Source: Hyphomicrobiales bacterium (GTDB taxonomy: Bacteria > Pseudomonadota > Alphaproteobacteria > Rhizobiales > Aestuariivirgaceae). Taken from it: 64,000 nucleotides of DNA. The translations under genes and the position numbers were made by a program. Below the pieces are notes generated by a model. The model searched no databases, was not told the origin of the DNA, and was given only the letters and a program-made list of their open reading frames with translations. Position 1 is the first letter of the stretch, and every line of letters starts with the position of its first letter. Below, in pieces: positions 10,448 through 21,651 of the stretch. Location: the NCBI GenBank assembly GCA_016185245.1, contig JACPNZ010000042.1:62001-126000 (forward strand), given 5' to 3'.

Positions 10448-11005
10448 TTAACTTACTTGATAGCCGAATTCTTCCGCCTGCCCGGTGAGCCATTCCCAGA
10501 AGTTTTCCGAGAAGCCGCGGAACACCGAGAGCTCGAAGGCATCTTCGCCGGTGCGGGTGAGATGGACGCCGACATGGGCCATCTGGGTGACGGCACTCTT
10601 GCCGCGCAGAAATTCATTTGGATGCAGGTCGACCGGCGTGCCTTTGGCCAGAACCGCCCGCGCCTTGGGACCGGCGATGCGGATGACGATGCGGCCGTGG
10701 CTCTGGTCCGACAGCGAGGCGAGTCCCGCCAGCTTCTCCCTCAGTTCGCGATAGAGAGCGCCCTCGGCGTAAGTTTCGGACACGGCATAGTACTGGTCCG
10801 CACCGGCCCATTGCACGACGCATCCCTTGAGACCGGCAAGAGCCGCCGACAGCGCCTCGGCCTTGTCCTTTCGCGCAATAACGGTGACGATTGACAAAGG
10901 ATGGCGCACCGAAAGCTCGACACCGGGCGCACCCTTGTCGGCGCCGAAACGGCCCTGGATAGCCACATCGGCCAGCGGTGAAATGCGATGGAAACCTTCA
11001 CGCAT
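10448..11005 (-). CDS. soxG: Sarcosine oxidase gamma-type subunit (SoxG, or MgdD of N-methylglutamate dehydrogenase)
   Basis: This 185-residue protein is the last gene of a soxBDAG-ordered operon and overlaps the end of soxA by 8 bases. The sequence has the GCV_T-like features of the gamma subunit, for example RIVIRIAGPKARAVLAKGTPVDLHP and FELSVFRGFSENFWEWL near the C terminus. In heterotetrameric sarcosine oxidase gamma packs against the folate-binding half of alpha. N-methylglutamate dehydrogenase uses a homologous subunit, so the name depends on the substrate of the whole complex. Confidence 0.85.
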   Translation of the reverse strand: MREGFHRISPLADVAIQGRFGADKGAPGVELSVRHPLSIVTVIARKDKAEALSAALAGLKGCVVQWAGADQYYAVSETYAEGALYRELREKLAGLASLSDQSHGRIVIRIAGPKARAVLAKGTPVDLHPNEFLRGKSAVTQMAHVGVHLTRTGEDAFELSVFRGFSENFWEWLTGQAEEFGYQVS

Positions 11006-13910
11006 GGAGCCTCGCGTTCTCCCGGTCGAAGTGCATGGGCTCGCAGATCACGCCGTATTGATGAATGCCGCGCAGCCCATCGAAGATCTTCACCATCTCA
11101 CCGATCCGTGCGCGGCCATTGGCGAGAAGGGCGAGGCCTACCCACTGGCCAAGCATCGGCGAGAAGGCAACCGAAGTGATATAGCCCTGGTCATTGGCGA
11201 TGGATGGGGCATCGCCGCGTTTCAGAAAATGCGATCCCGACCGCAGGCGGTCGCTGCGGTGGAAGGGCCTGATGCCGACGACACATTGCCGGTTTGCGTC
11301 GGTGAGGCCTTCGCGCATCGCCATCATGCGGCCGATGTAGTCCTTCTTGGTCGACATCATCTTGCCAAGGCCAAGATCGGCCGCCGTGGTGGTGCCGTTC
11401 AACTCGCCGCCCGCCACATGGCCCTTTTCGATCCGCATGATGGAGAGCGCCTCGACGCCATAGGGCACGATGCCGAATTCCTCGCCCGCCTGCATGAGTG
11501 CCCGGGCCGCCATGTTGGCATAGTCGGCCGGCACCGCCAATTCATAGGCATGTTCGCCCGAGAACGAAATGCGGAACAGCCGCGCCGGAATGCCGCCGAG
11601 AATTGTCAACTCCTTCGCCGCCATATAGGGAACCGTCTCATCGTTGAGCGTGACGCCGTCGACGATCTTCTGCAGCGTGGCCCGCGATCTTGGCCCCGCC
11701 ACCGCCATCTGGCCCCACTGCTCGGTAACCGAGACATATTGCACGTCGAGATCGGGCCACAGGGCCTGGTGGCAGAACTCCATGTGGCTCATCACGCGCG
11801 CCGCATTGGCCGTCGTCGTGGTCATCAGAAAGTGGTCGTCGGCAAGCCGCGAGGTGGTGCCGTCGTCGAACACGATGCCATCCTCGCGCAGCATCAGCCC
11901 ATAGCGGGCCTTGCCCACCGGCAGCGTCGAAAAAGTATTGCAATAGAGCTTGTCGAGGAAGGCGCCCGCATCCTTGCCCTGCACGTCGATCTTGCCCAGC
12001 GTCGAGACATCGCAGATGCCAACGCCGCTACGTGTCGCCAGCACCTCGCGCGTCGCACTCGCCAGCCAGTCCTCGTCCGCTCGCGGAAACCACGACGAGC
12101 GCATCCACAACCCGGTCTCGACGAAGACCGCCCCCTGCTCCTCGGCCCAGTCGCTGAGCGGGGTCTTGCGCGTCGGCTGAAAATGGCGGCCGACGAAAGG
12201 ACCGGCGAAGGCGCCGAAGGCTACCGGGGTGTAATAGGGCCGAAAGGTGGTGGTGCCAACCTGCTCGATGGTCTTGCCCGTCGCCTCGGCCAGGATGGCG
12301 ATGGCATTGACGTTGCCGAGCTTGCCCTGGTCGGTCGCCATGCCGGTGGTGGTATAGCGTTTGACCAGCTCGATGTCGCTGTAGCCTTCGCGCGCCGCCA
12401 GCGGCAGGTCCTTGACCGAGACGTCGTTCTGGTAGTCGACGAAGGCTTTGGTCTTCGACTCTTTCACCCACCACAGGGCCTTGATGGCATAGGTCTCGTC
12501 GCGGCACTTCGGCGCATCCGATGGTTTACCGCCACCCTTCGCCGCACCGTCGGCGAGGCACTCCGAGAGCAGCATCCTGCCGGCTGCGGAACCCGCCGCA
12601 ACGAAGCTCTCGCCCGTGTCCGGGGGAACGAAGCCGGCGATCGTGGCATCCCATTTCGGCCTGGCGCCGCGATGACAGGCAAGGTTGACGATCGGCGACC
12701 AACCGCCCGACATGGCGACCGTGTCGCAGCCGATATGCATGTGGTCGTCGAGTTCGATGCCGGCAACCCCCTTGCCGCCCTTGACATCGACGATCTTCCG
12801 TCCACGGATCACCGGTACGCCACCAGCTTCCACCCGGCTGTCGGCGCGACTGTCAACGATCACCTCGACACGCACGCCATGGGTCCTCATGTCGCGTGCC
12901 GTGCGGTAACCGGAATCGTTGTTGGTGAAGACGACGGCCGCCTTCCCCGCCGCCGCTGCATAGCGGTTGGCGTAGGCCCGCATGGCCGAGGCCAGCATGA
13001 CACCCGGCACGTCGTTGCCGCCGAAAACGATAGGGCGCTCCTCGGCTCCCACCGCCAGCACCGCCCGCTTGGCGATCACCCGCCAATAGCGCTGCCGAGG
13101 CTCGTAAGGGCTGGGTGCTAAAACGTGATCGTTGACCCGCTCGACAGCACCGAAGATGTTGCCGTCATACCAGCCGAACACGGTGGTGCGCGGCATGAGA
13201 GTCACGTTCGGCATCGACGCCAGTTCGGCGATCGCGCTATTGGCCCAATCGAGCCCACTCTTTCCGTCGATTTCCTCGTTTTCGAAGAGGAGCGAGCCGC
13301 CGAGCCGGGTGCCCTCGTCGGCAAGAATGACCCGCGCCCCCAACCGCGCCGCCGTCAGCGCCGCCATGAGACCGGCGGGGCCAGAGCCGATCACCAGCAG
13401 GTCGCCATGGGCATAGGCCTTCTCGTACTTGTCGGGATCGGCTTCCTTGGCCGCCGAACCCAGCCCCGCGGCGCGGCGGATCAATGGCTCGTAAATCTTC
13501 TCCCAGAAACTCTTCGGCCACATGAAGGTCTTGTAGTAGAAGCCCGCCACGAACATCGACGCGGCCAGCGAGTTGATCGCCCCCACGTCGAAGGCGAGCG
13601 AAGGCCAGCGGTTCTGGCTCTTCGCCACCAGGCCCTCATAGAGCTCGATCATGGTGGCCCGCGTATTGGCCTCCTGGCGGGCGCCCTCGCGCAATTCGAC
13701 CAGGGCATTGGGCTCCGAGCTGCCTGCCGAAATGACGCCGCGCGGCCGGTGATACTTGAACGACCGGCCCATCAGGTGAACGCCATTGGCGATCAGCGCC
13801 GAAGCCAGCGTGTCGCCGGGATGCCCGGTGAAGCCCTTCCCATCGAAGCTGAAGGAGAGCGAAGCGGCGCGATCGATCAGGCCGCCTTTTTCGAGACGGA
13901 AGGAGGTCAT
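10998..13910 (-). CDS. soxA: Sarcosine oxidase alpha-type subunit (SoxA, or MgdC)
   Basis: At 970 residues the protein has the full alpha-subunit architecture: an N-terminal ferredoxin-like segment (FTGHPGDTLASALIANG), a dinucleotide-binding domain with VIGSGPAGLMAALTAARLG around residue 175, and a C-terminal aminomethyltransferase-type half (STLGKIDVQGKDAGAFLDKLY, RISFSGEHAYELAVP) that binds tetrahydrofolate in sarcosine oxidase. I used the ATG at 13910, preceded by AGGGGG at seven bases and overlapping the soxD stop (ATGA); a longer in-frame extension upstream is only read-through of soxD sequence. It oxidises an N-methyl amine together with SoxB. Confidence 0.9.
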   Translation of the reverse strand: MTSFRLEKGGLIDRAASLSFSFDGKGFTGHPGDTLASALIANGVHLMGRSFKYHRPRGVISAGSSEPNALVELREGARQEANTRATMIELYEGLVAKSQNRWPSLAFDVGAINSLAASMFVAGFYYKTFMWPKSFWEKIYEPLIRRAAGLGSAAKEADPDKYEKAYAHGDLLVIGSGPAGLMAALTAARLGARVILADEGTRLGGSLLFENEEIDGKSGLDWANSAIAELASMPNVTLMPRTTVFGWYDGNIFGAVERVNDHVLAPSPYEPRQRYWRVIAKRAVLAVGAEERPIVFGGNDVPGVMLASAMRAYANRYAAAAGKAAVVFTNNDSGYRTARDMRTHGVRVEVIVDSRADSRVEAGGVPVIRGRKIVDVKGGKGVAGIELDDHMHIGCDTVAMSGGWSPIVNLACHRGARPKWDATIAGFVPPDTGESFVAAGSAAGRMLLSECLADGAAKGGGKPSDAPKCRDETYAIKALWWVKESKTKAFVDYQNDVSVKDLPLAAREGYSDIELVKRYTTTGMATDQGKLGNVNAIAILAEATGKTIEQVGTTTFRPYYTPVAFGAFAGPFVGRHFQPTRKTPLSDWAEEQGAVFVETGLWMRSSWFPRADEDWLASATREVLATRSGVGICDVSTLGKIDVQGKDAGAFLDKLYCNTFSTLPVGKARYGLMLREDGIVFDDGTTSRLADDHFLMTTTTANAARVMSHMEFCHQALWPDLDVQYVSVTEQWGQMAVAGPRSRATLQKIVDGVTLNDETVPYMAAKELTILGGIPARLFRISFSGEHAYELAVPADYANMAARALMQAGEEFGIVPYGVEALSIMRIEKGHVAGGELNGTTTAADLGLGKMMSTKKDYIGRMMAMREGLTDANRQCVVGIRPFHRSDRLRSGSHFLKRGDAPSIANDQGYITSVAFSPMLGQWVGLALLANGRARIGEMVKIFDGLRGIHQYGVICEPMHFDRENARLHA

Positions 13911-14194
13911 GCCTTCGCCCCCTGGCGCGACTTGGTCCAGTCGCGCGCCGTCACCGTGCCATGAATTTCGTGGGTCGCGGTATTGCGCGAGACGACGAGC
14001 CAGGCCCGGCACCCACCCGAGTGCTGCACATATTCGTCGAAGCGGCCCTTCGGATTGTCGCGCAAATAGACGTAGTCGAACCATTGCTCCATGGTCGACG
14101 GATCGTTGGAGGTGGGCCGCTGTGGCCTGGCATCGCCGAGGAAAGTGTACTCCTCCACCGGCCTGGCTCCGCAATGAGGACATTTGATCAGCAT
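13907..14194 (-). CDS. soxD: Sarcosine oxidase delta-type subunit (SoxD, or MgdB), zinc-binding
   Basis: This 95-residue protein starts MLIKCPHCG, with the paired cysteines that, together with the His and Cys of QHSGGCRAW further on, match the zinc site of the delta subunit. The ATG has GAGGG eight bases upstream. The stop overlaps the soxA start and the gene sits 11 bases downstream of soxB. Delta stabilises the alpha-beta interface in the heterotetramer. Confidence 0.9.
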   Translation of the reverse strand: MLIKCPHCGARPVEEYTFLGDARPQRPTSNDPSTMEQWFDYVYLRDNPKGRFDEYVQHSGGCRAWLVVSRNTATHEIHGTVTARDWTKSRQGAKA

Positions 14195-14205
14195 GCGGAA
14201 TACCC

Positions 14206-15456
14206 TCAGTGCAAATTGGGCGTGGCGCCCTGGCCTTTTTCGTCGATCATATAGCCGCGCCGGAAGCGGTTGAGACGAAAAGCGGCATTGAGCCCGTGCG
14301 CCTCGTCCCGGGCGATGGTGTGGGCGAAACACCAGCCCGACGCCGGTGTTGCCTTGAAGCCGCCGTAGCACCAGCCGCAATTGAGATAGAGCCCATCGAT
14401 ATGGGTCTTGTCGATGATCGGCGAACCGTCCATCGACATGTCCATGATGCCGCCCCAGGAACGCAAAACCCGCACCCGGGCGAGCCCCGGGATCATGGCG
14501 ACACCCGCCTCGATAACATGTTCGACCATTGGCAGGTTGCCGCGGCGGGCATAGGAGTTGTAGCCGTCGAGATCGCCGCCGAAGACGAGCCCGCCCTTGT
14601 CCGACTGCGACACATAGAAATGCCCGGCTCCGAAGGTGACGACGCCGTCGATGTAGGGCTTGAGTCCCTCCGACACGAAAGCCTGCAGTACATGGCTCTC
14701 GATCGGCAGCTTCATGCCGGCCAGGGCGGCCACTTCCGAGGAATTGCCGGCCGCCGCAAGGCCCAGTTTGCTGCAACCGATGAAGCCCCGGCTGGTATCG
14801 ACGCCGGTAACCTTGCCGTTGTCGATCCTGATGCCGGTCACTTCGCAGTTCTGGATGATATCGACGCCACGGCTATCGGCACCGCGCGCGTAGCCCCAGG
14901 CCACCGCGTCGTGGCGCACCGTGCCGCCGCGCCGTTGCAGCAACCCGCCCTTGATCGGAAAGCGCGGGCTGTCGAAATCGAAGAACGGATACATCTCGCG
15001 CACGTCCTGTGCATCGAGAAGTTCGGCATCGACCCCGTCGATCCGCATGGCGTTGCCGCGCCGCGCGAAGGCATCGCGTTGGGCGTCGGTGTGGCAGAGA
15101 TTGAGCACGCCGCGCTGCGACACCATGGCGTTGAAGTTGAAGTCCTGTTCCAGGCCCTCCCACAACTTCATCGACCATTCGTAAAAGGGATTGTTGCCCG
15201 GCAGCATGTAGTTGGAGCGGATGATGGTGGTGTTGCGGCCGATGTTGCCGGAGCCGAGCCAGCCCTTCTCCAGCACCGCCACATTGGTTAGCCCATGCTC
15301 TTTGGCGAGGTAATAGGCGGTCGACAGCCCGTGCCCGCCACCGCCGACAATGACCACGTCATAGGACGTCTTCGGCTCGGGCGCACGCCAGGCGGGTGCC
15401 CAGTTCCGGTGGCCCGAGAGGGTGTTCCTGATAAGCGAGAAGACGGAATACTTCAT
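14206..15456 (-). CDS. soxB: Sarcosine oxidase beta-type subunit (SoxB, or MgdA of N-methylglutamate dehydrogenase)
   Basis: This 416-residue flavoprotein has the FAD-binding VVIVGGGGHGLSTAYYLA motif near residue 35, TTIIRSNY, a histidine in TVRHDAVAWGYAR that matches the site reported for covalent FMN in heterotetrameric sarcosine oxidase, and a C-terminal LNCGWCYGGFKATPASGW segment. The beta subunit carries out amine oxidation. Several segments (SNYMLPGNNPFYEW, HVLQAFVSEG, GHFYVSQSDKGGLVFGGDLDG, GWCFAHTIA) differ from the sarcosine oxidases I remember and look closer to the MgdA branch, which oxidises N-methylglutamate. AGGAAGG lies just before the start. Confidence 0.87.
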   Translation of the reverse strand: MKYSVFSLIRNTLSGHRNWAPAWRAPEPKTSYDVVIVGGGGHGLSTAYYLAKEHGLTNVAVLEKGWLGSGNIGRNTTIIRSNYMLPGNNPFYEWSMKLWEGLEQDFNFNAMVSQRGVLNLCHTDAQRDAFARRGNAMRIDGVDAELLDAQDVREMYPFFDFDSPRFPIKGGLLQRRGGTVRHDAVAWGYARGADSRGVDIIQNCEVTGIRIDNGKVTGVDTSRGFIGCSKLGLAAAGNSSEVAALAGMKLPIESHVLQAFVSEGLKPYIDGVVTFGAGHFYVSQSDKGGLVFGGDLDGYNSYARRGNLPMVEHVIEAGVAMIPGLARVRVLRSWGGIMDMSMDGSPIIDKTHIDGLYLNCGWCYGGFKATPASGWCFAHTIARDEAHGLNAAFRLNRFRRGYMIDEKGQGATPNLH

Positions 15457-15594: not shown

Positions 15595-16899
15595 CTAACA
15601 ATCCAGCGTCGTGTCGCGCTCCCACTGGGTGAGATGGCGGCAATATTGATTCCACTCGTTGTGCTTGAGCTTCAGATAGGCGGCGGTGACTTCACCGCCG
15701 ATGCTGTCGCGCAAATACTTGTCCTTTTCGAAGTTGCGCAGCGCATCGAGCAGGTTGAGCGGCAGCTTCTTGGCGTTCTTGACCGTGTGGCCCTCGGCAT
15801 ACATGTCGATGTCGAGGCGCTTGCCGGGGCTCATCTTCTCATCGATCCCGTGCAGGCCCGCCACCAGAATGCCCGCCATCATCAGATAGGGGTTGGCGGC
15901 GCCATCCGGCAGACGGAACTCGGTGCGTCCGGCATCGGGGATGCGCACCATGTGGGTGCGGTTGTTGCCGCCGAAGGTGACCGTGTTGGGCGACCAGGTG
16001 GCGCCCGAGACGGTGCGCGGCGCGTTGATGCGCTTGTAGCTGTTGACCGTCGGATTGGTGATGGCGACCAGCGAATCGGCATGGTGCATGAGGCCGCCCA
16101 GGAAGTTGTAGGCGAGCGCCGACAGTCCCATCTCGTCCTTGTCGCTGTGGAACAGGTTCTTCTTGCGCTCGTTGTCCCACACCGACAGATGCACGTGGCA
16201 GCCGTTGCCGGTGAGGTTGATGAACGGCTTCGGCATGAAGGTGGCGCGAAGGCCATGCTTCTCGGCGATCGATTTCACCATGAACTTGAAGAAGGCGAGC
16301 TGATCGGCGGTGGTCAGTGCATCGCTGAAGTTCCAGTTGATCTCGAACTGGCCGTTGGCGTCCTCATGATCGTTCTGGTAGGGGCCCCAGCCGAGCTTCA
16401 CCATGGTTGTGCAGATCTCGGTGATGACATCGAGCCGGCGCATGATCGCCGCCTGATCGTAACAGGGCTTTTCCTGGGTATCGCGATGGTCGGAGATCGC
16501 CGTGCCGTCGGCGTTGATCAGATGGAACTCGGGTTCGACACCGGCCATCAGCTTCATGTTCTTCTTGGTGGTCGTTTCCATGAGATTGCGCAGCGCCACG
16601 CGCGGCGCCTGGGCCAGGGGCTCGCCGTTCATCCACGGCTCGCCCGCCACCCAGGCCACATCCGGCCGCCAGGGCAGCGGGATGATGGCATTGGTGTCGG
16701 GCATCACCAGGATATCGGGGTGGGCCGGCGTCTGGTCGAGCCAGGTGGCGAAGCCGGCAAAGCCAGCACCTGCCTTCTGCATCTTGCCCGCCGCCTCGGC
16801 GGGGACGAGCTTGGCCCGCTGGGTGCCGAACAAGTCGGTGAAATTGAACAGGAAGAACTTTATGCCGTTGTCTTTGGCATACTTCGCAAGGTCGCCCAT
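15595..16899 (-). CDS. Glutamine synthetase family protein, GlnT / gamma-glutamylmethylamide synthetase (GmaS) type
   Basis: The 434-residue protein is a glutamine-synthetase-fold ligase: GVEPEFHL and NDHEDANGQFEINW (metal-binding acids), GNGCHVHLS, the NPTVNSYKR loop and RTEFRLPDGAANPYL. It matches the GlnT group of rhizobia in length and motifs. Members of this group include GmaS, which joins methylamine to glutamate in the N-methylglutamate pathway of methylamine use. It is immediately upstream of soxBDAG/mgdABCD on the same strand, separated by 138 bases containing a palindromic repeat; that context favours GmaS, but a plain glutamine synthetase cannot be excluded. Confidence 0.82.
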   Translation of the reverse strand: MGDLAKYAKDNGIKFFLFNFTDLFGTQRAKLVPAEAAGKMQKAGAGFAGFATWLDQTPAHPDILVMPDTNAIIPLPWRPDVAWVAGEPWMNGEPLAQAPRVALRNLMETTTKKNMKLMAGVEPEFHLINADGTAISDHRDTQEKPCYDQAAIMRRLDVITEICTTMVKLGWGPYQNDHEDANGQFEINWNFSDALTTADQLAFFKFMVKSIAEKHGLRATFMPKPFINLTGNGCHVHLSVWDNERKKNLFHSDKDEMGLSALAYNFLGGLMHHADSLVAITNPTVNSYKRINAPRTVSGATWSPNTVTFGGNNRTHMVRIPDAGRTEFRLPDGAANPYLMMAGILVAGLHGIDEKMSPGKRLDIDMYAEGHTVKNAKKLPLNLLDALRNFEKDKYLRDSIGGEVTAAYLKLKHNEWNQYCRHLTQWERDTTLDC

Positions 16900-17016: not shown

Positions 17017-17766
17017 CTACTGCAGCCCTACCGGATCGACGATTCCGCCGGGACAGCCGGCAGAGGTGGGCGGGGCAGCGGCGACCAGCGCCGCTACGGA
17101 AGTTCCCGCAGAAATGTCCCCTCGGAGGCCGAGAGTCATCTCGGCGATCAGCCGGCGGTTGCCGTCGTCCTTGCAGGCAATCCGCAGGCGCTCGCCCGCA
17201 CCGGCGCCGAAGGCCGCATCGAAGCTGGCGCGGAGGTCGGCGGTCGTAACGGATTTTCCGACGTTGGCGGCGAGGAAGGCCTGCACCGGCGAAACATTGA
17301 CGGCATCGATCAATCGTACCGCGTCCTTGAAATAGGTATCCGCATTGCGTCCCGGATAGCAGGTGCCATGCTTGATCCATTCGTGGCGTTCGAGCAGAGA
17401 CCGGGTTCCCGGCATGACGCGATCCAGCGCTGCCCTGGTAGCAGGCGTGAGTTCGGGTTCCGGCAGGTCCTGCCAGCGGTGAGCATCGTCGGCGGCCTTC
17501 AGCGTCGCATCGACGCCGCACAATTCCCTGCTGCGCGGCTGCGGCCACAGCCCGTGCAGGCTGAGGTGCGTGGCATCGAACCCGCCCGGTGTCTCGGCCC
17601 GGCATTCGGGCTTGTCCGGGAAGCCTTCGCAGAAGGCCGGCTCCCACGAGAGGGCTAGCACATAGAAGGGTTGGCGGCCCTCGGCCGACGCCATCGTCGC
17701 AAGCCCGGCGAGACAGGCGATGGCAACGACGCTCCGCCGCCAAAGGGCGCAAGTCATGGACATCAT
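17017..17766 (-). CDS. Secreted ribonuclease T2 family protein
   Basis: This 249-residue protein has a signal peptide (SVVAIACLAGLATMASA) and both catalytic segments of RNase T2: CAS I as LSLHGLWPQ and CAS II as HEWIKHGTC, giving the two active-site histidines and a glutamate. Such enzymes cleave single-stranded RNA through a 2',3'-cyclic intermediate in the periplasm or outside the cell. The start ATG overlaps the stop of the XRE-cupin regulator gene (ATGA), so the two are co-translated; a second ATG follows immediately and a third two codons later. I see no obvious reason for the pairing with that regulator. Confidence 0.87.
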   Translation of the reverse strand: MMSMTCALWRRSVVAIACLAGLATMASAEGRQPFYVLALSWEPAFCEGFPDKPECRAETPGGFDATHLSLHGLWPQPRSRELCGVDATLKAADDAHRWQDLPEPELTPATRAALDRVMPGTRSLLERHEWIKHGTCYPGRNADTYFKDAVRLIDAVNVSPVQAFLAANVGKSVTTADLRASFDAAFGAGAGERLRIACKDDGNRRLIAEMTLGLRGDISAGTSVAALVAAAPPTSAGCPGGIVDPVGLQ

Positions 17767-18419
17767 TCCTCGCGACGGTAGCTGATCACCGACAGATAGC
17801 GGATAGGCAGCTTGCCCAGCTCCTCGGGCCCGTGCGGCGCATCGGCATCGAAGAACAGCGAATCGCCCGGGTGCATGTCGTAGGTTTTGTCGCCGTGCCG
17901 GTAGATGACATTGCCTTCGATCATGTAGAGGAACTCGAGGCCGGCGTGCTGGAAGGTCGGAAACACGTCCGACTCATGGGTCAGGGTGATCATGTAGGGC
18001 TCGACCACCACCGGGCCATGCGGGCTGTGGCCGAGGAGCTGATACTGGTGGCCGGCCCGCGTGCCGCGCCGCTCGATGGTGAGGCCCTGGCCCGACTTGA
18101 CGAAGCTCGCATCGCGGGTTTCCTCGAAACTGCGGAACAGGGCCGTCACCGGCACCTGCAACGCCTTGCCCAGGGCCTGCAGCGAGGCGAGCGACGGCGA
18201 AGTGGCGCCGTTTTCGATCTTCGACAGCATGCCGGCCGACATGCCGGCCGCCTTGGCGAGCTCGGAAATGGTGATGTTGAGCTTCTCGCGGAAGCGCTTG
18301 ACTTCGCGGCCGATGGCTTCCTCGAGAAACTTGCCACTGGCGCCGGCGCGGGTACCATGGGGCTCCTGGTAAGGAAGCCCGCCCTTCGCACGTGTTTTTG
18401 CCGTCTGTCGCTTGTCCAA
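17763..18419 (-). CDS. XRE-cupin transcriptional regulator
   Basis: This 218-residue protein has a helix-turn-helix of the XRE type (about residues 36-95: ISELAKAAGMSAGMLSKIENG, SPSLASLQALGKAL) joined to a C-terminal cupin domain with EFLYMIEGNVIYRHG and MHPGDSLFFDADAPHGP. This class usually senses small amines, amino acids or polyamines. The start is TTG, not ATG: GGAGG lies six bases upstream on the minus strand. It sits upstream of RNase T2, glnT/gmaS and the sox genes on the same strand and is a candidate regulator of that block. It diverges from cysD across an inverted repeat. Confidence 0.85.
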   Translation of the reverse strand: MDKRQTAKTRAKGGLPYQEPHGTRAGASGKFLEEAIGREVKRFREKLNITISELAKAAGMSAGMLSKIENGATSPSLASLQALGKALQVPVTALFRSFEETRDASFVKSGQGLTIERRGTRAGHQYQLLGHSPHGPVVVEPYMITLTHESDVFPTFQHAGLEFLYMIEGNVIYRHGDKTYDMHPGDSLFFDADAPHGPEELGKLPIRYLSVISYRREE

Positions 18420-18430
18420 GTTTTTCCTCC
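18417..18430 (-). promoter_or_regulatory. Ribosome binding site fixing the TTG start of the XRE-cupin gene
   Basis: On the minus strand GGAGG (18426-18430) is followed by six bases and TTG (18417-18419). No ATG is available at this spacing, so the TTG start is well supported. Confidence 0.7.
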
Positions 18431-18509
18431 GAGGAAAACCATATTCCGCCTAGACGAAGTCGACAACAGGCGCGAGGCCAAAGTTTGATAGGTTTTTACC
18501 GTTTGGTGA

Positions 18510-18533
18510 TCCTATTTTTCTAATAAAATAGGA
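18510..18533. promoter_or_regulatory. Perfect 9-bp inverted repeat, candidate operator between the XRE-cupin gene and cysD
   Basis: TCCTATTTT (18510-18518) and AAAATAGGA (18525-18533) are exact inverted copies around a six-base spacer, in an AT-rich stretch of an otherwise GC-rich region. The site is 91 bases from the regulator start and 44 bases from the first cysD ATG. It could bind the XRE-cupin protein, a sulfur regulator, or the HTH-like domain fused to CysD. No T-run in the right place suggests a terminator. Confidence 0.55.
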
Positions 18534-18577
18534 CAAATCCTCTCGACAAATGATGCTTCCGCAACTAAGAAGCCTTC

Positions 18578-19744
18578 ATGGATACTATTGCCAAGAGCTT
18601 CCTGACCGACATCGAGCGCTTTCTCGCTACCTCGAAACTGGACGCCACCCGGCTCGGCAAGCAGGCGATCGGCGATCCGTCCTTCGTCTTCGATCTGCGG
18701 AAAGGCCGTTCGCCCTCGGCCCGCACCATGGACAAGGTGCGCGCCTGGATGACCCAACAGAGATCCGCGCCGGCCCAGCCGCAATCAGCCCCGACCCAAC
18801 CCCTCGCCACCGCCGGAGGACCCGCCGTGACCGATGCCCTGTCTCGCCGCCTCACCCATCTCGAGCGCCTCGAGGCCGAGTCGATCCATATCATCCGCGA
18901 GGTCGCGGCCGAGTGCGAGAAGCCGGTGATGCTCTATTCGATTGGCAAGGATTCGGCGGTGATGCTGCATCTCGCTATCAAGGCGTTCTTTCCCTCCAAG
19001 CCGCCCTTCCCGCTGATGCATGTCGATACCGGCTGGAAGTTCCGCGACATGTACGAACTGCGCGATGCCACCGCCCGGAAATACGGCTGGGACCTCATTG
19101 TCTACAAGAACCCGGAAGGGGTGGCCAAAAACGTCAACCCCTTCGACCACGGCTCGGCTCTTCACACCCAGATCATGAAGACCGATGCGCTGAAGCAGGC
19201 CCTCGACCAGTACGGCTTCGACGCGGCCTTCGGCGGAGCCCGGCGCGACGAAGAAAAGAGCCGCGCCAAGGAGCGCATCTTCTCCTTCCGCGACCAGCGC
19301 CACCGCTGGGACCCCAAGAACCAGCGCCCGGAACTGTGGAACCTCTACAATGCCCGCAAGAACAAGGGCGAGTCGATCCGCGTCTTCCCGCTATCAAACT
19401 GGACCGAGCTCGACATCTGGCAATATATCCACCGCGAGGCGATCGAAATCGTGCCCCTGTACTTTGCCGCCGAACGGCCGGTGGTGATGCGCGACGGCCA
19501 GCTCATCATGGTTGACGACGAGCGGATGCGACTCAATCGCGGCGAAAAGCCGGAGATGAAAAAGATCCGCTTCCGCACGCTCGGCTGCTATCCGCTGACC
19601 GGCGCTATCGAATCGAACGCCACCTCGCTTCTCGATATCGTCGAGGAAATGCTGGTCGCCACCTCCTCCGAGCGCCAGGGCCGGGTGATCGACAAGGACC
19701 AGTCGGCCTCGATGGAGAAGAAGAAGCAGGAAGGATATTTCTGA
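18578..19744 (+). CDS. cysD: Sulfate adenylyltransferase subunit 2 with an N-terminal HTH-like extension
   Basis: The reading frame encodes 388 residues, against about 300 for ordinary CysD. Residues about 88-388 are canonical CysD: the PP-loop [68 protein letters not shown] and [12 protein letters not shown]. It makes APS from sulfate and ATP with CysN. Residues 1-61 form a separate small domain ([45 protein letters not shown]) resembling stand-alone small HTH regulators of rhizobia, joined by a Pro/Ala/Gln-rich linker. An internal GTG at 18827 with GGAGG seven bases upstream would give normal-length CysD, so both fused and unfused forms are possible. The ATG at 18578 has only a weak ribosome site. 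It overlaps cysNC by one base. Confidence 0.88.
18815..18829 (+). promoter_or_regulatory. Internal ribosome binding site and GTG start within the cysD frame
   Basis: GGAGG (18815-18819) precedes GTG (18827-18829) by seven bases, in the cysD frame. Translation from here gives a protein beginning [16 protein letters not shown], which aligns with the usual CysD N terminus. It is stronger than the site before the upstream ATG. Confidence 0.7.
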
Positions 19745-21651
19745 TGGCCCGTTTCATCGAGTTCACCGGCGGCGACGTCGAGGCCTATCTGCAGTCCCAG
19801 GAGAAGAAAGACCTGCTGCGCTTCATCACCTGCGGCTCGGTCGACGACGGCAAGTCGACCCTCATCGGCCGGCTTCTCTACGAGGCCAAGATGCTGTTCG
19901 AGGACCAACTCACCGCCCTTGAGGCCGATTCGAAGAAGATGGGCACGCAAGGAGGCAATCTCGATTTCGCCCTGCTGGTCGACGGGCTTGCCGCCGAACG
20001 CGAGCAAGGCATCACCATCGATGTGGCCTATCGCGCCTTCACCACCGACAAGCGCAAGTTCATCGTCGCCGATACGCCGGGCCACGAGCAATATACCCGC
20101 AACATGGCAACCGGGGCTTCGACCGCCGACCTCGCCATCATCCTGATCGACGCCCGCAAGGGAGTTCTGACCCAGACCCGCCGCCACACGTTCATTTGCA
20201 CTCTTCTCGGCATCCGGCATCTAGTCGTCGCCGTCAACAAGATGGACCTGATGGATTACCGCCAGGATGTCTTCGCCCGGGTCGACGAGGACTACCGTAG
20301 TTTCGCCCGCTCGCTCGGCGCCACCGACATCACGGTCATACCAATTTCGGCATTGGCCGGCGACAATGTCATCGCCCGCTCGGCCAACATGGCCTGGTAT
20401 CACGGCTCAACCCTCATGGCCCATCTCGAAACCGTGCCGGTCGGCGACACCCTGGATAGCCAGCCGTTCCGCCTGCCGGTGCAGTGGGTGAACCGCCCGG
20501 ACCAGAATTTCCGCGGCTTTTCCGGCACCGTCGTATCGGGTTCGGTGAAGCCTGGCGATCCGATCACGGTCATGCCGTCGGCCCGCACCTCCACCGTCGC
20601 CCGCGTCGTCACTTACGACGGCGAACTCCCCGAAGGCGTCGCCGGACAATCGCTCACCGTGACCCTTGCCGACGAGATCGACGTGAGCCGTGGCGACGTC
20701 CTGTGCGCCGGCGGCGATCCGGTGGAAGTCTCGGACCAGTTCGAGGTCGAGATCCTGTGGATGGGCGACGAGCCCATGTTGCCGGGCCGCTCCTATGTCA
20801 TCAAGGCCGGCGCCGCCACCGTGCCGGGCTCGCTCGAGGAACTGAAGTACAAGGTCAACGTCAACACCATGGAGCATGTGGCGGCCAAGAGCCTTGCTCT
20901 CAACGAGATCGGCGTGTGCAACCTGGAACTCGATCGGGCCATCGCCTTTGCGCCCTATGCCGAGAACCGGCATCTCGGTTCGTTCATCGTCATCGACCGT
21001 TTTTTCAATACCACGGTCGGCATGGGGCTCATGCGCTTTGCCTTGCGCCGCGCCGCCAACATTCACTGGCAGGCGGTCGATGTGCACAAAGCGGCGCGTG
21101 CCAGACTTGCCGGCCAGAAGCCGGCGGTCTTGTGGTTCACCGGCCTGTCGGGAGCGGGCAAGTCGACGATCGCCAATCTGGTCGAGAAGAAACTTCACGC
21201 CCTGGGCCACATGACCTACCTGCTCGACGGCGACAACATCCGCCACGGCCTCAACCGCGATCTGGGATTCACCGACGCCGACCGGGTGGAAAACATCCGC
21301 CGTGTCGCCGAGGTCTCGCGGCTGATGGTCGACGCCGGCCTCATCGTGCTCGTCTCCTTCATCTCGCCGTTCCGCTCCGAACGCCTGATGGCGCGCGAAA
21401 TGCTGGACCCCGGCGAGTTCATCGAGGTGTTTGTCGATACCTCGCTGGCGGAAGCCGAGAAGCGCGACGTGAAGGGCCTCTATGCCAAGGCGCGGCGTGG
21501 CGAGATCATGCACTTCACCGGCATTTCCTCGCCCTACGAGAAACCGGAAAACCCGGAAATCCGCATCGATACGGTAAGCCTCCCATCCGAAGCCGCAGCC
21601 GAGGGAATCGTCGCCTATCTTGCCGAGAAGGGCCGTCTCAGCAAGGCCTGA
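19744..21651 (+). CDS. cysNC: Bifunctional sulfate adenylyltransferase subunit 1 / adenylylsulfate kinase
   Basis: The 635-residue protein joins a CysN GTPase to a CysC APS kinase. The GTPase part has [18 protein letters not shown] and NKMDL, followed by elongation-factor-like beta-barrel domains. The kinase part starts near residue 455 with the P-loop GLSGAGKST, then [15 protein letters not shown] and FISPFRSER. CysN drives APS synthesis by GTP hydrolysis with CysD, and CysC makes PAPS. The ATG overlaps the cysD stop (TGATG). It converges with the TetR gene 10 bases away. Confidence 0.95.

Follow-up and report, generated by a model that had tools for sequence, protein, structure and literature searches.

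In the 64,000-nucleotide stretch of DNA analysed here (the window), the gene at 18578-19744 (+) encoded the small subunit of sulfate adenylyltransferase (CysD) joined in frame to an N-terminal domain predicted to fold as a lambda-repressor-type helix-turn-helix (HTH). We put at roughly three in four the probability that the gene specifies a self-repressing enzyme, in which a Cro-type domain and its operator were taken from a temperate phage switch and joined before cysD. The support obtained in silico comprised the conserved fusion, the predicted fold, the location of many stand-alone relatives in the position of cro, a candidate operator tied to the domain, a residue code for the half-site, and the spacing of the operator from TTGAC upstream of homoserine dehydrogenase (hom) fusions.

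Architecture and conservation of the cysD fusion

The gene was a single open frame of 388 aa running from ATG to TGA. Residues 1-61 (18578-18760, +) made up the Cro-like domain, delimited by its predicted fold and its conservation in the genus, and residues 62-90 (18761-18847, +) a linker rich in Pro, Ala and Gln. The CysD body, stop codon included, occupied 18848-19744 (+). NCBIfam model NF009214 covered residues 85-388 at 552 bits (cut-off 413) and TIGR02039 (CysD) covered residues 95-388 above its curated equivalog cut-off; SIGKDS, which we take to be the PP-loop motif, was present in the translation and the PP-loop region was intact. The single open frame, with NCBIfam CysD matches beginning at residue 85 or 95, bore out the claim of the initial annotation that CysD is fused in frame to an extra N-terminal part. 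Residues 1-83 matched no Pfam family above cut-off and no NCBIfam family. In a full-length model the domain was confident, linker residues 66-87 fell under pLDDT 50 and CysD was of mixed confidence. Canonical CysD-CysN(C) shares residues 95-388 and the following gene with the window locus but is without the ~83 extra N-terminal residues. A whole-protein search showed the window CysD to be the sole CysD match in its genome. Its stop codon was overlapped by the start of a cysNC-like gene (19744-21651, +), identified from the open-reading-frame list and its translation, which by position belonged to the same operon and by motifs presumably encodes CysN plus CysC. Divergent to cysD lay a regulator gene with Pfam HTH_3 and cupin matches (17763-18419), not of the S24 kind, whose neighbours we take from their motifs to be glutamine-synthetase-like (15595-16899) and sarcosine-oxidase-like (10998-15456).

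When 61 genomes were searched with the whole protein, a match was found in 49. In 25 of these, all in the window's genus and counting its own genome, the extension and CysD were kept in a single stop-free frame (E ≤ 3.9e-198), confirming that the fusion is real and beyond chance. The domain profile was positive in 28 of 37 genus genomes, with one copy each save in G035, where a second, weak match was seen (E 0.004); absence of the extension from close relatives, which the initial annotation had named as evidence against its reading, was thus not observed. All 28 domain matches lay at cysD by coordinates, 25 of them complete and three incomplete (G005, G006 and G024), and the frame continued into a clear CysD in 27 of the 28. 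The fusion in G005 was cut by a contig end, and that in G024 consisted of the domain, the linker and the first ~10 CysD residues, followed by unrelated sequence near a contig end. At G006:C104:65994-67141, CysD was split between two overlapping frames by a frameshift, real or assembly-derived.

Nine genus genomes were domain-negative. Five of them (G004, G009, G016, G023 and G026) had an unfused cysD whose product, like canonical CysD, was without the N-terminal extension, and no cysD match was found in the other four (G013, G014, G022 and G030). The five unfused members formed one group (support 99/95) in a tree of 30 CysD bodies, which is compatible with a single change, either loss or gain. 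The median pN/pS was lowest for CysD (0.14), intermediate for the domain (0.32) and highest for the linker (0.81) (231 pairs from 22 of the 25 fused sequences, with L012, L024 and L025 left out), indicating by this sequence-based measure that the domain at cysD is under purifying selection in the genus. Fusion length among 22 sequences ranged from 370 to 388 aa, and the linker varied by whole codons.

Internal start in the linker

The strong internal start described by the initial annotation was present in the window: GGAGG-N7-GTG at 18815-18829 (+), with GGAGG at 18815-18819 and GTG at 18827, was a candidate start for free CysD, and the ATG at 18578 had no Shine-Dalgarno match by a simple test. 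However, the internal start was not conserved. The linker of L032, the locus with the most similar domain, offered TTG as its sole start codon, with no Shine-Dalgarno match, and in 11 of the 27 distinct fused loci the linker contained no ATG, GTG or TTG at all, so the earlier proposal of two products, fusion and free CysD, did not hold as a general feature. Dual translation as a conserved device was ruled out. Some fused loci (e.g., L004, L016, L017 and L020-L022) had a linker start codon with a Shine-Dalgarno-like match; the internal start may work in some species, and free CysD may be made in the window's species. In several relatives the ATG abutted the candidate operator described below, and leaderless translation from this ATG was considered for them.

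Predicted fold of the N-terminal domain

AlphaFold2 models of 29 sequences gave four helices (residues 3-19, 23-30, 36-42 and 48-62), with a block pLDDT of 78-88 over residues 1-60 and a pTM of 0.55 for 83 residues. Among the best 50 of 182 Foldseek matches in the PDB, most were of the Cro/CI type (HipB, SinR, C.Esp1396I, C.BclI and the 434 repressor), many with a target TM of 0.6-0.72 and commonly with an rmsd of ~2 Å over 53-60 columns; E-values were weak (≥0.5), and the top row was a human CUT domain with an rmsd of 14.5. Judged by this predicted compact helical fold, residues 1-61 would be a lambda-repressor-like (XRE/Cro-CI) HTH. The initial annotation had viewed them as a small, complete helical domain resembling stand-alone regulators and as HTH-like; the four predicted helices and the relatives that were found agree with the former view, and structure prediction of residues 1-83, giving a lambda-repressor-type HTH, with the latter.

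Palindromic operators and self-repression are known from the SinR, HipB and C-protein families. The window domain shares its predicted fold with SinR, HipB and C.Esp1396I (PDB 3zkc, 4pu7 and 3clc) but differs from them in sequence: a sequence-profile search of PDB chains gave no match up to E 10, and Pfam HTH families stayed below cut-off, LacI (E 0.084) and HTH_26 (E 0.16) appearing for one member each among 18 members.

Occurrence of the domain on other proteins

The domain was found in 38 of 297 genomes of the order by profile search; a broader profile, applied to 385 genomes of the class, was positive in 46. Partners identified by NCBIfam or Pfam were homoserine dehydrogenase, CoaBC, class II fumarate hydratase (FumC) and AMP nucleosidase, and stand-alone members were open frames of 67-147 codons. 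Homologs of residues 1-61 thus existed in both stand-alone and fused form, where the initial annotation had reckoned with the chance that there were none. In the family of G041 (Rhizobiales), 126 of 136 genomes carried the domain, in 120 of these 126 the best match fell in a frame of at least 500 codons, and all 30 loci fetched were homoserine dehydrogenase fusions (L195 being the same gene as L076). The hom fusions (L069-L074, L076-L081, L146 and L176-L205), with the same domain and candidate operator, were the largest case of this architecture here.

A further set of ~500-residue fusions (L075, L083, L084, L088, L091, L092, L094, L098, L103, L236 and L237) was read by us as methyltransferase-like; L083, the sole member tested, matched no Pfam or NCBIfam family. 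Five loci (L100, L109, L110, L114 and L117) carried the domain twice in tandem followed by an HTH_17-like domain, with a Pfam match for L109 only.

A candidate operator upstream of the fused genes

Two candidate operators resembling TAGG-N6-CCTA were located upstream of the window gene. The proximal one, TAGGACAAATCCTC (18529-18542), had 7 of the 8 letters; the distal one, TAGGTTTTTACCGT (18489-18502), lay 40 bp farther upstream and had 6 of the 8 letters, rising to 7 in L032. Both were conserved blocks amid poorly conserved DNA in a pairwise alignment with L032. The inverted repeat reported by the initial annotation at 18510-18533 was also present and extended one base wider (18509-18533), but only its right end was shared with the proximal candidate, whose left half it overlapped. 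Taken by itself, the window would be insufficient to establish an operator, since its sites were imperfect (7/8 and 6/8; shuffle p 0.033) and 16 sites of 7/8 or better occurred in the 64 kb. No sigma-70-like promoter was found at 18380-18900.

When fused and unfused genes were compared, the site followed the domain. All 28 distinct regions upstream of fused cysD had a site of 7-8/8 within 150 nt, 13 of them exact, and most had at least two sites scoring 6/8 or better. By contrast, such a site was absent within 150 nt upstream of all 23 unfused cysD genes, four of which were second copies in fusion genomes; the upstream regions used for them ended 9 nt before the enzyme match, so promoters more than ~150 nt away would be missed, and two of the 20 fetched unfused loci (L211 and L213) were left out, apparently since no match began in their first 20 residues. 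Fused hom genes gave 36 of 36 (35 exact) and unfused hom genes 0 of 28 at the same distance and score, the unfused upstream regions here ending 24 nt before the match with the same limit. Fisher p values were 5e-15 (cysD) and 9e-19 (hom), but the counts are not independent because related rows share ancestry and reflect few independent events. Two CoaBC fusions had upstream sites of 8/8 and 7/8. No convincing TAGG operator was found at the FumC (L090) and AMP nucleosidase (L102) fusions, whose best sites scored 6/8 and 5/8; either another half-site is used there or self-control was lost. Loci with short or duplicate upstream DNA were left out of the operator, inverted-repeat, residue-code and spacing counts.

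A motif-free test for perfect 5-bp inverted repeats peaked at a gap of 6 in CysD loci (14 of 29 vs 3.6 expected; G024, with L058 and L226, was counted as CysD in this test and as stand-alone in the domain tree below), in stand-alone loci (13 of 24 vs 3.3) and in methyltransferase-like loci (5 of 9 vs 1.3). In Hom loci, gap 6 was seen in 6 of 12 (vs 1.6 expected) and was tied with gap 8.

Exact TAGG-N6-CCTA occurred 99 times in the 37 genus genomes, 18 times in the 9 domain-negative and 81 times in the 28 domain-positive ones; at least 17 of these 81 were at cysD, leaving at most 64 elsewhere. The window's genome had no exact site, the exact form alone being counted genome-wide. The stricter TAGGA-N4-TCCTA was found at eight places in the 37 genomes, six of them directly before fused cysD (one in G024). 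A wide regulon received no support, exact sites away from cysD being similarly few in domain-positive and domain-negative genomes. A reversed-pattern control was far commoner than TAGG-N6-CCTA in the genus genomes; since TAGG/CCTA should be uncommon in coding DNA anyway, no avoidance is claimed from this control.

In the 33 hom upstream regions listed, the operator always started 8-9 nt after the start of TTGAC, and the same spacing was seen in two of six phage/plasmid loci (L271 and L275). Upstream of fused cysD, TTGAC was present in only 8 of 27 regions and never at the distance seen in hom; in L018 and L024-L026, four of the eight, the best site began 23 nt after TTGAC, where a -10 hexamer would be.

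Pairing of domain residues with the half-site letter

The letter in the half-site followed residues 33-34 of the domain. Among 90 distinct loci with DP at these residues, exact TAGG was present in 59, TCGG in one and exact TGGG in none, while eight loci had no TAGG site at 7/8. Among 18 loci with DG, six had exact TGGG, none had exact TAGG and 12 had neither; exact TGGG-N6-CCCA stood upstream of the methyltransferase-like L075, L094 and L098. Two other pairs were represented by single cases: L093, with DR, had the perfect 16-bp palindrome GTCGGAATTATCCGAC upstream (GTCGG-N6-CCGAC), and L116, with DW, had CACGGATACATCCGTG (CACGG-N6-CCGTG), which suggests further specificities. We infer that this pairing is a recognition code by which the domain would bind its site. 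The link to gene control raised in the initial annotation is strongly indicated, at the level of sequence, by this pairing and by the tie between operator and domain at cysD and hom.

Phage relatives and origin of the domain

Five viral contigs encoded a stand-alone member, the nearest of which (L269) shared 60% identity with the window domain across 67 residues, and two records in a plasmid collection matched. A search of 50,697 annotated phage records gave no match. The divergent gene was a Peptidase_S24 gene in six of these seven viral and plasmid loci; the seventh, L271, gave no Pfam hit for it, and its phage contig held three exact operator copies. Among 26 stand-alone genome loci, 13 had a divergent gene with an S24-like motif, 12 of them confirmed by Pfam (L118 matched only HTH_3), and the other 14 were without a Pfam-confirmed S24 neighbour. 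Three of the five tandem-domain loci had a divergent S24 gene, all Pfam-confirmed. Many stand-alone relatives are therefore in the cro position facing a CI-type repressor. A motif search detected no divergent S24 gene at any of 27 CysD or 33 Hom loci; with none at the CysD fusions, the window protein is a fusion of a Cro-like domain and not a Cro.

In the domain tree, which had 57 columns and at most 14 CysD and 14 Hom rows and left many other forks without support, the CysD domains grouped together and enclosed phage L269 (99/97), and the Hom domains formed a second group (99/90), beside stand-alone L068 (100/94). The separate groups indicate at least two fusions. With L269 inside the CysD group, the tree fits either direction of exchange.

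Proposed mechanism and alternative explanations

In the mechanism that we propose, residues 1-61 would be a Cro-type repressor domain that came, together with its operator, from a phage, phage to host being the presumed direction. The domain would bind TAGG-N6-CCTA beside its own promoter (in the window, at 18529-18542 and 18489-18502). The enzyme part is an oligomer and would bring two domains together, and the dimer would be held at least partly in this way. Free or excess CysD would then shut down transcription of cysD-cysNC, and the signal relieving repression could be CysD-CysNC assembly or a substrate. Binding of the CysNC partner is preferred as the signal, since CysD left without a partner would in that case report its own excess.

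An improbable alternative is that the palindrome belongs to another, trans-acting regulator and that the domain serves protein contacts, RNA binding or localisation. It would account for the FumC, AMP nucleosidase and some methyltransferase-like fusions, which have no clear TAGG site, and binding by the domain itself is putative. However, the site accompanied the domain across genes and lineages that are unrelated, unfused forms of these enzymes gave no such site, the half-site letter tracked domain residues 33-34, many stand-alone members stood in Cro's place, and exact sites away from cysD were similarly few with the domain (at most 64 in 28 genomes) and without it (18 in 9). We think it just as improbable that the domain acts as an activator or regulates sulfur metabolism more widely. 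XRE-type proteins can activate, and the two or more sites upstream of most fused cysD genes would suit such a role. The position 8-9 nt after TTGAC at hom and at two phage/plasmid sites is, however, a repressor position, lying, as judged from TTGAC alone, in the would-be -35/-10 spacer, and a wider role fits poorly with a window genome devoid of exact sites and with only two of eight TAGGA-N4-TCCTA places in the genus lying away from cysD.

It is very unlikely that GTG 18827 is the main translation start, with the upstream frame a leader or the remnant of a cro-like gene and the working CysD unfused. The strength of GGAGG-N7-GTG and the missing Shine-Dalgarno match at ATG 18578 speak for it, but the one open frame kept in 25 genus genomes (own counted), the whole-codon changes in the linker, the selection on the domain and the lack of any linker start in 11 of 27 distinct fused loci, with only TTG in L032, speak against. 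An equally slim chance is given to a domain retained mainly for phage interference, as a resident Cro repressing the switch of infecting phages whose operators read TAGG-N6-CCTA. Phage contigs do share the operator, in three exact copies in L271, and L269 is close to the window domain at 60% identity, but interference leaves unexplained both why the operator is retained at fused cysD and hom loci and why biosynthetic enzymes were chosen.

Relation to known systems and wider meaning

The self-repressing reading places the window protein among trigger enzymes. Enzyme and putative DNA-binding domain lie in one chain, conserved in the genus, and a candidate site lies upstream of 28 of 28 fused vs 0 of 23 unfused cysD genes. 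PMC8249747 names five E. coli trigger enzymes (BirA, NadR, PepA, PutA and PyrH), and CysD, homoserine dehydrogenase, CoaBC, FumC and AMP nucleosidase are absent from that list. According to PMC8249747 and PMC6978683, PutA binds only its own intergenic region, and PutA and BirA are metabolic enzymes with a DNA-binding domain repressing their own operon, as the CysD fusion with its predicted domain would be; PutA and the CysD fusion each appear to have a single target beside themselves. The CysD fusion is unlike PutA and BirA in having a minimal Cro-type HTH that recurs on unrelated enzymes with one shared operator type. The DNA-binding domains of PutA and BirA are of fold types that differ from this minimal HTH. 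No description of such enzyme fusions was found in the open-access literature (PubMed Central). Trigger enzymes that gained a DNA-binding domain are already known, and a module akin to phage Cro would most likely make the window protein one more of them.

We lean slightly towards a broader proposition, namely that core enzymes of Alphaproteobacteria (CysD, homoserine dehydrogenase, CoaBC, and probably FumC, AMP nucleosidase and a methyltransferase-like protein) have repeatedly gained an N-terminal module for self-repression by the capture of phage Cro genes with their operator promoters, which would be a general route to trigger enzymes. If true, the amount of enzyme would be measured by the enzyme's own DNA binding, and, the operator still being that of living phages, host metabolism and phage switches would be coupled both ways. 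So far, only a few trigger enzymes, unrelated to one another, have been known; the present set, in which several unrelated core enzymes carry the same small phage-type domain and candidate operator, makes the origin of enzyme-level self-control directly testable and offers a family with a readable DNA code in residues 33-34 and the half-site letter. These findings suggest prophages as a source of ready-made control circuits for core metabolism.

With Cro of temperate phages (S24/CI switches) the window domain shares size and predicted fold, and many of its stand-alone relatives are divergent to S24 genes with palindromes in the intergenic region; the CysD fusion differs from phage Cro in being fused to an enzyme, in having no S24-like divergent gene (27 loci) and in being fixed in most of the genus. 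One stand-alone cro-like gene with a divergent S24 gene (L059, JAJCXP010000429.1) lay on a 3.1 kb contig titled Acidobacteriota, which may be mis-binned or phage.
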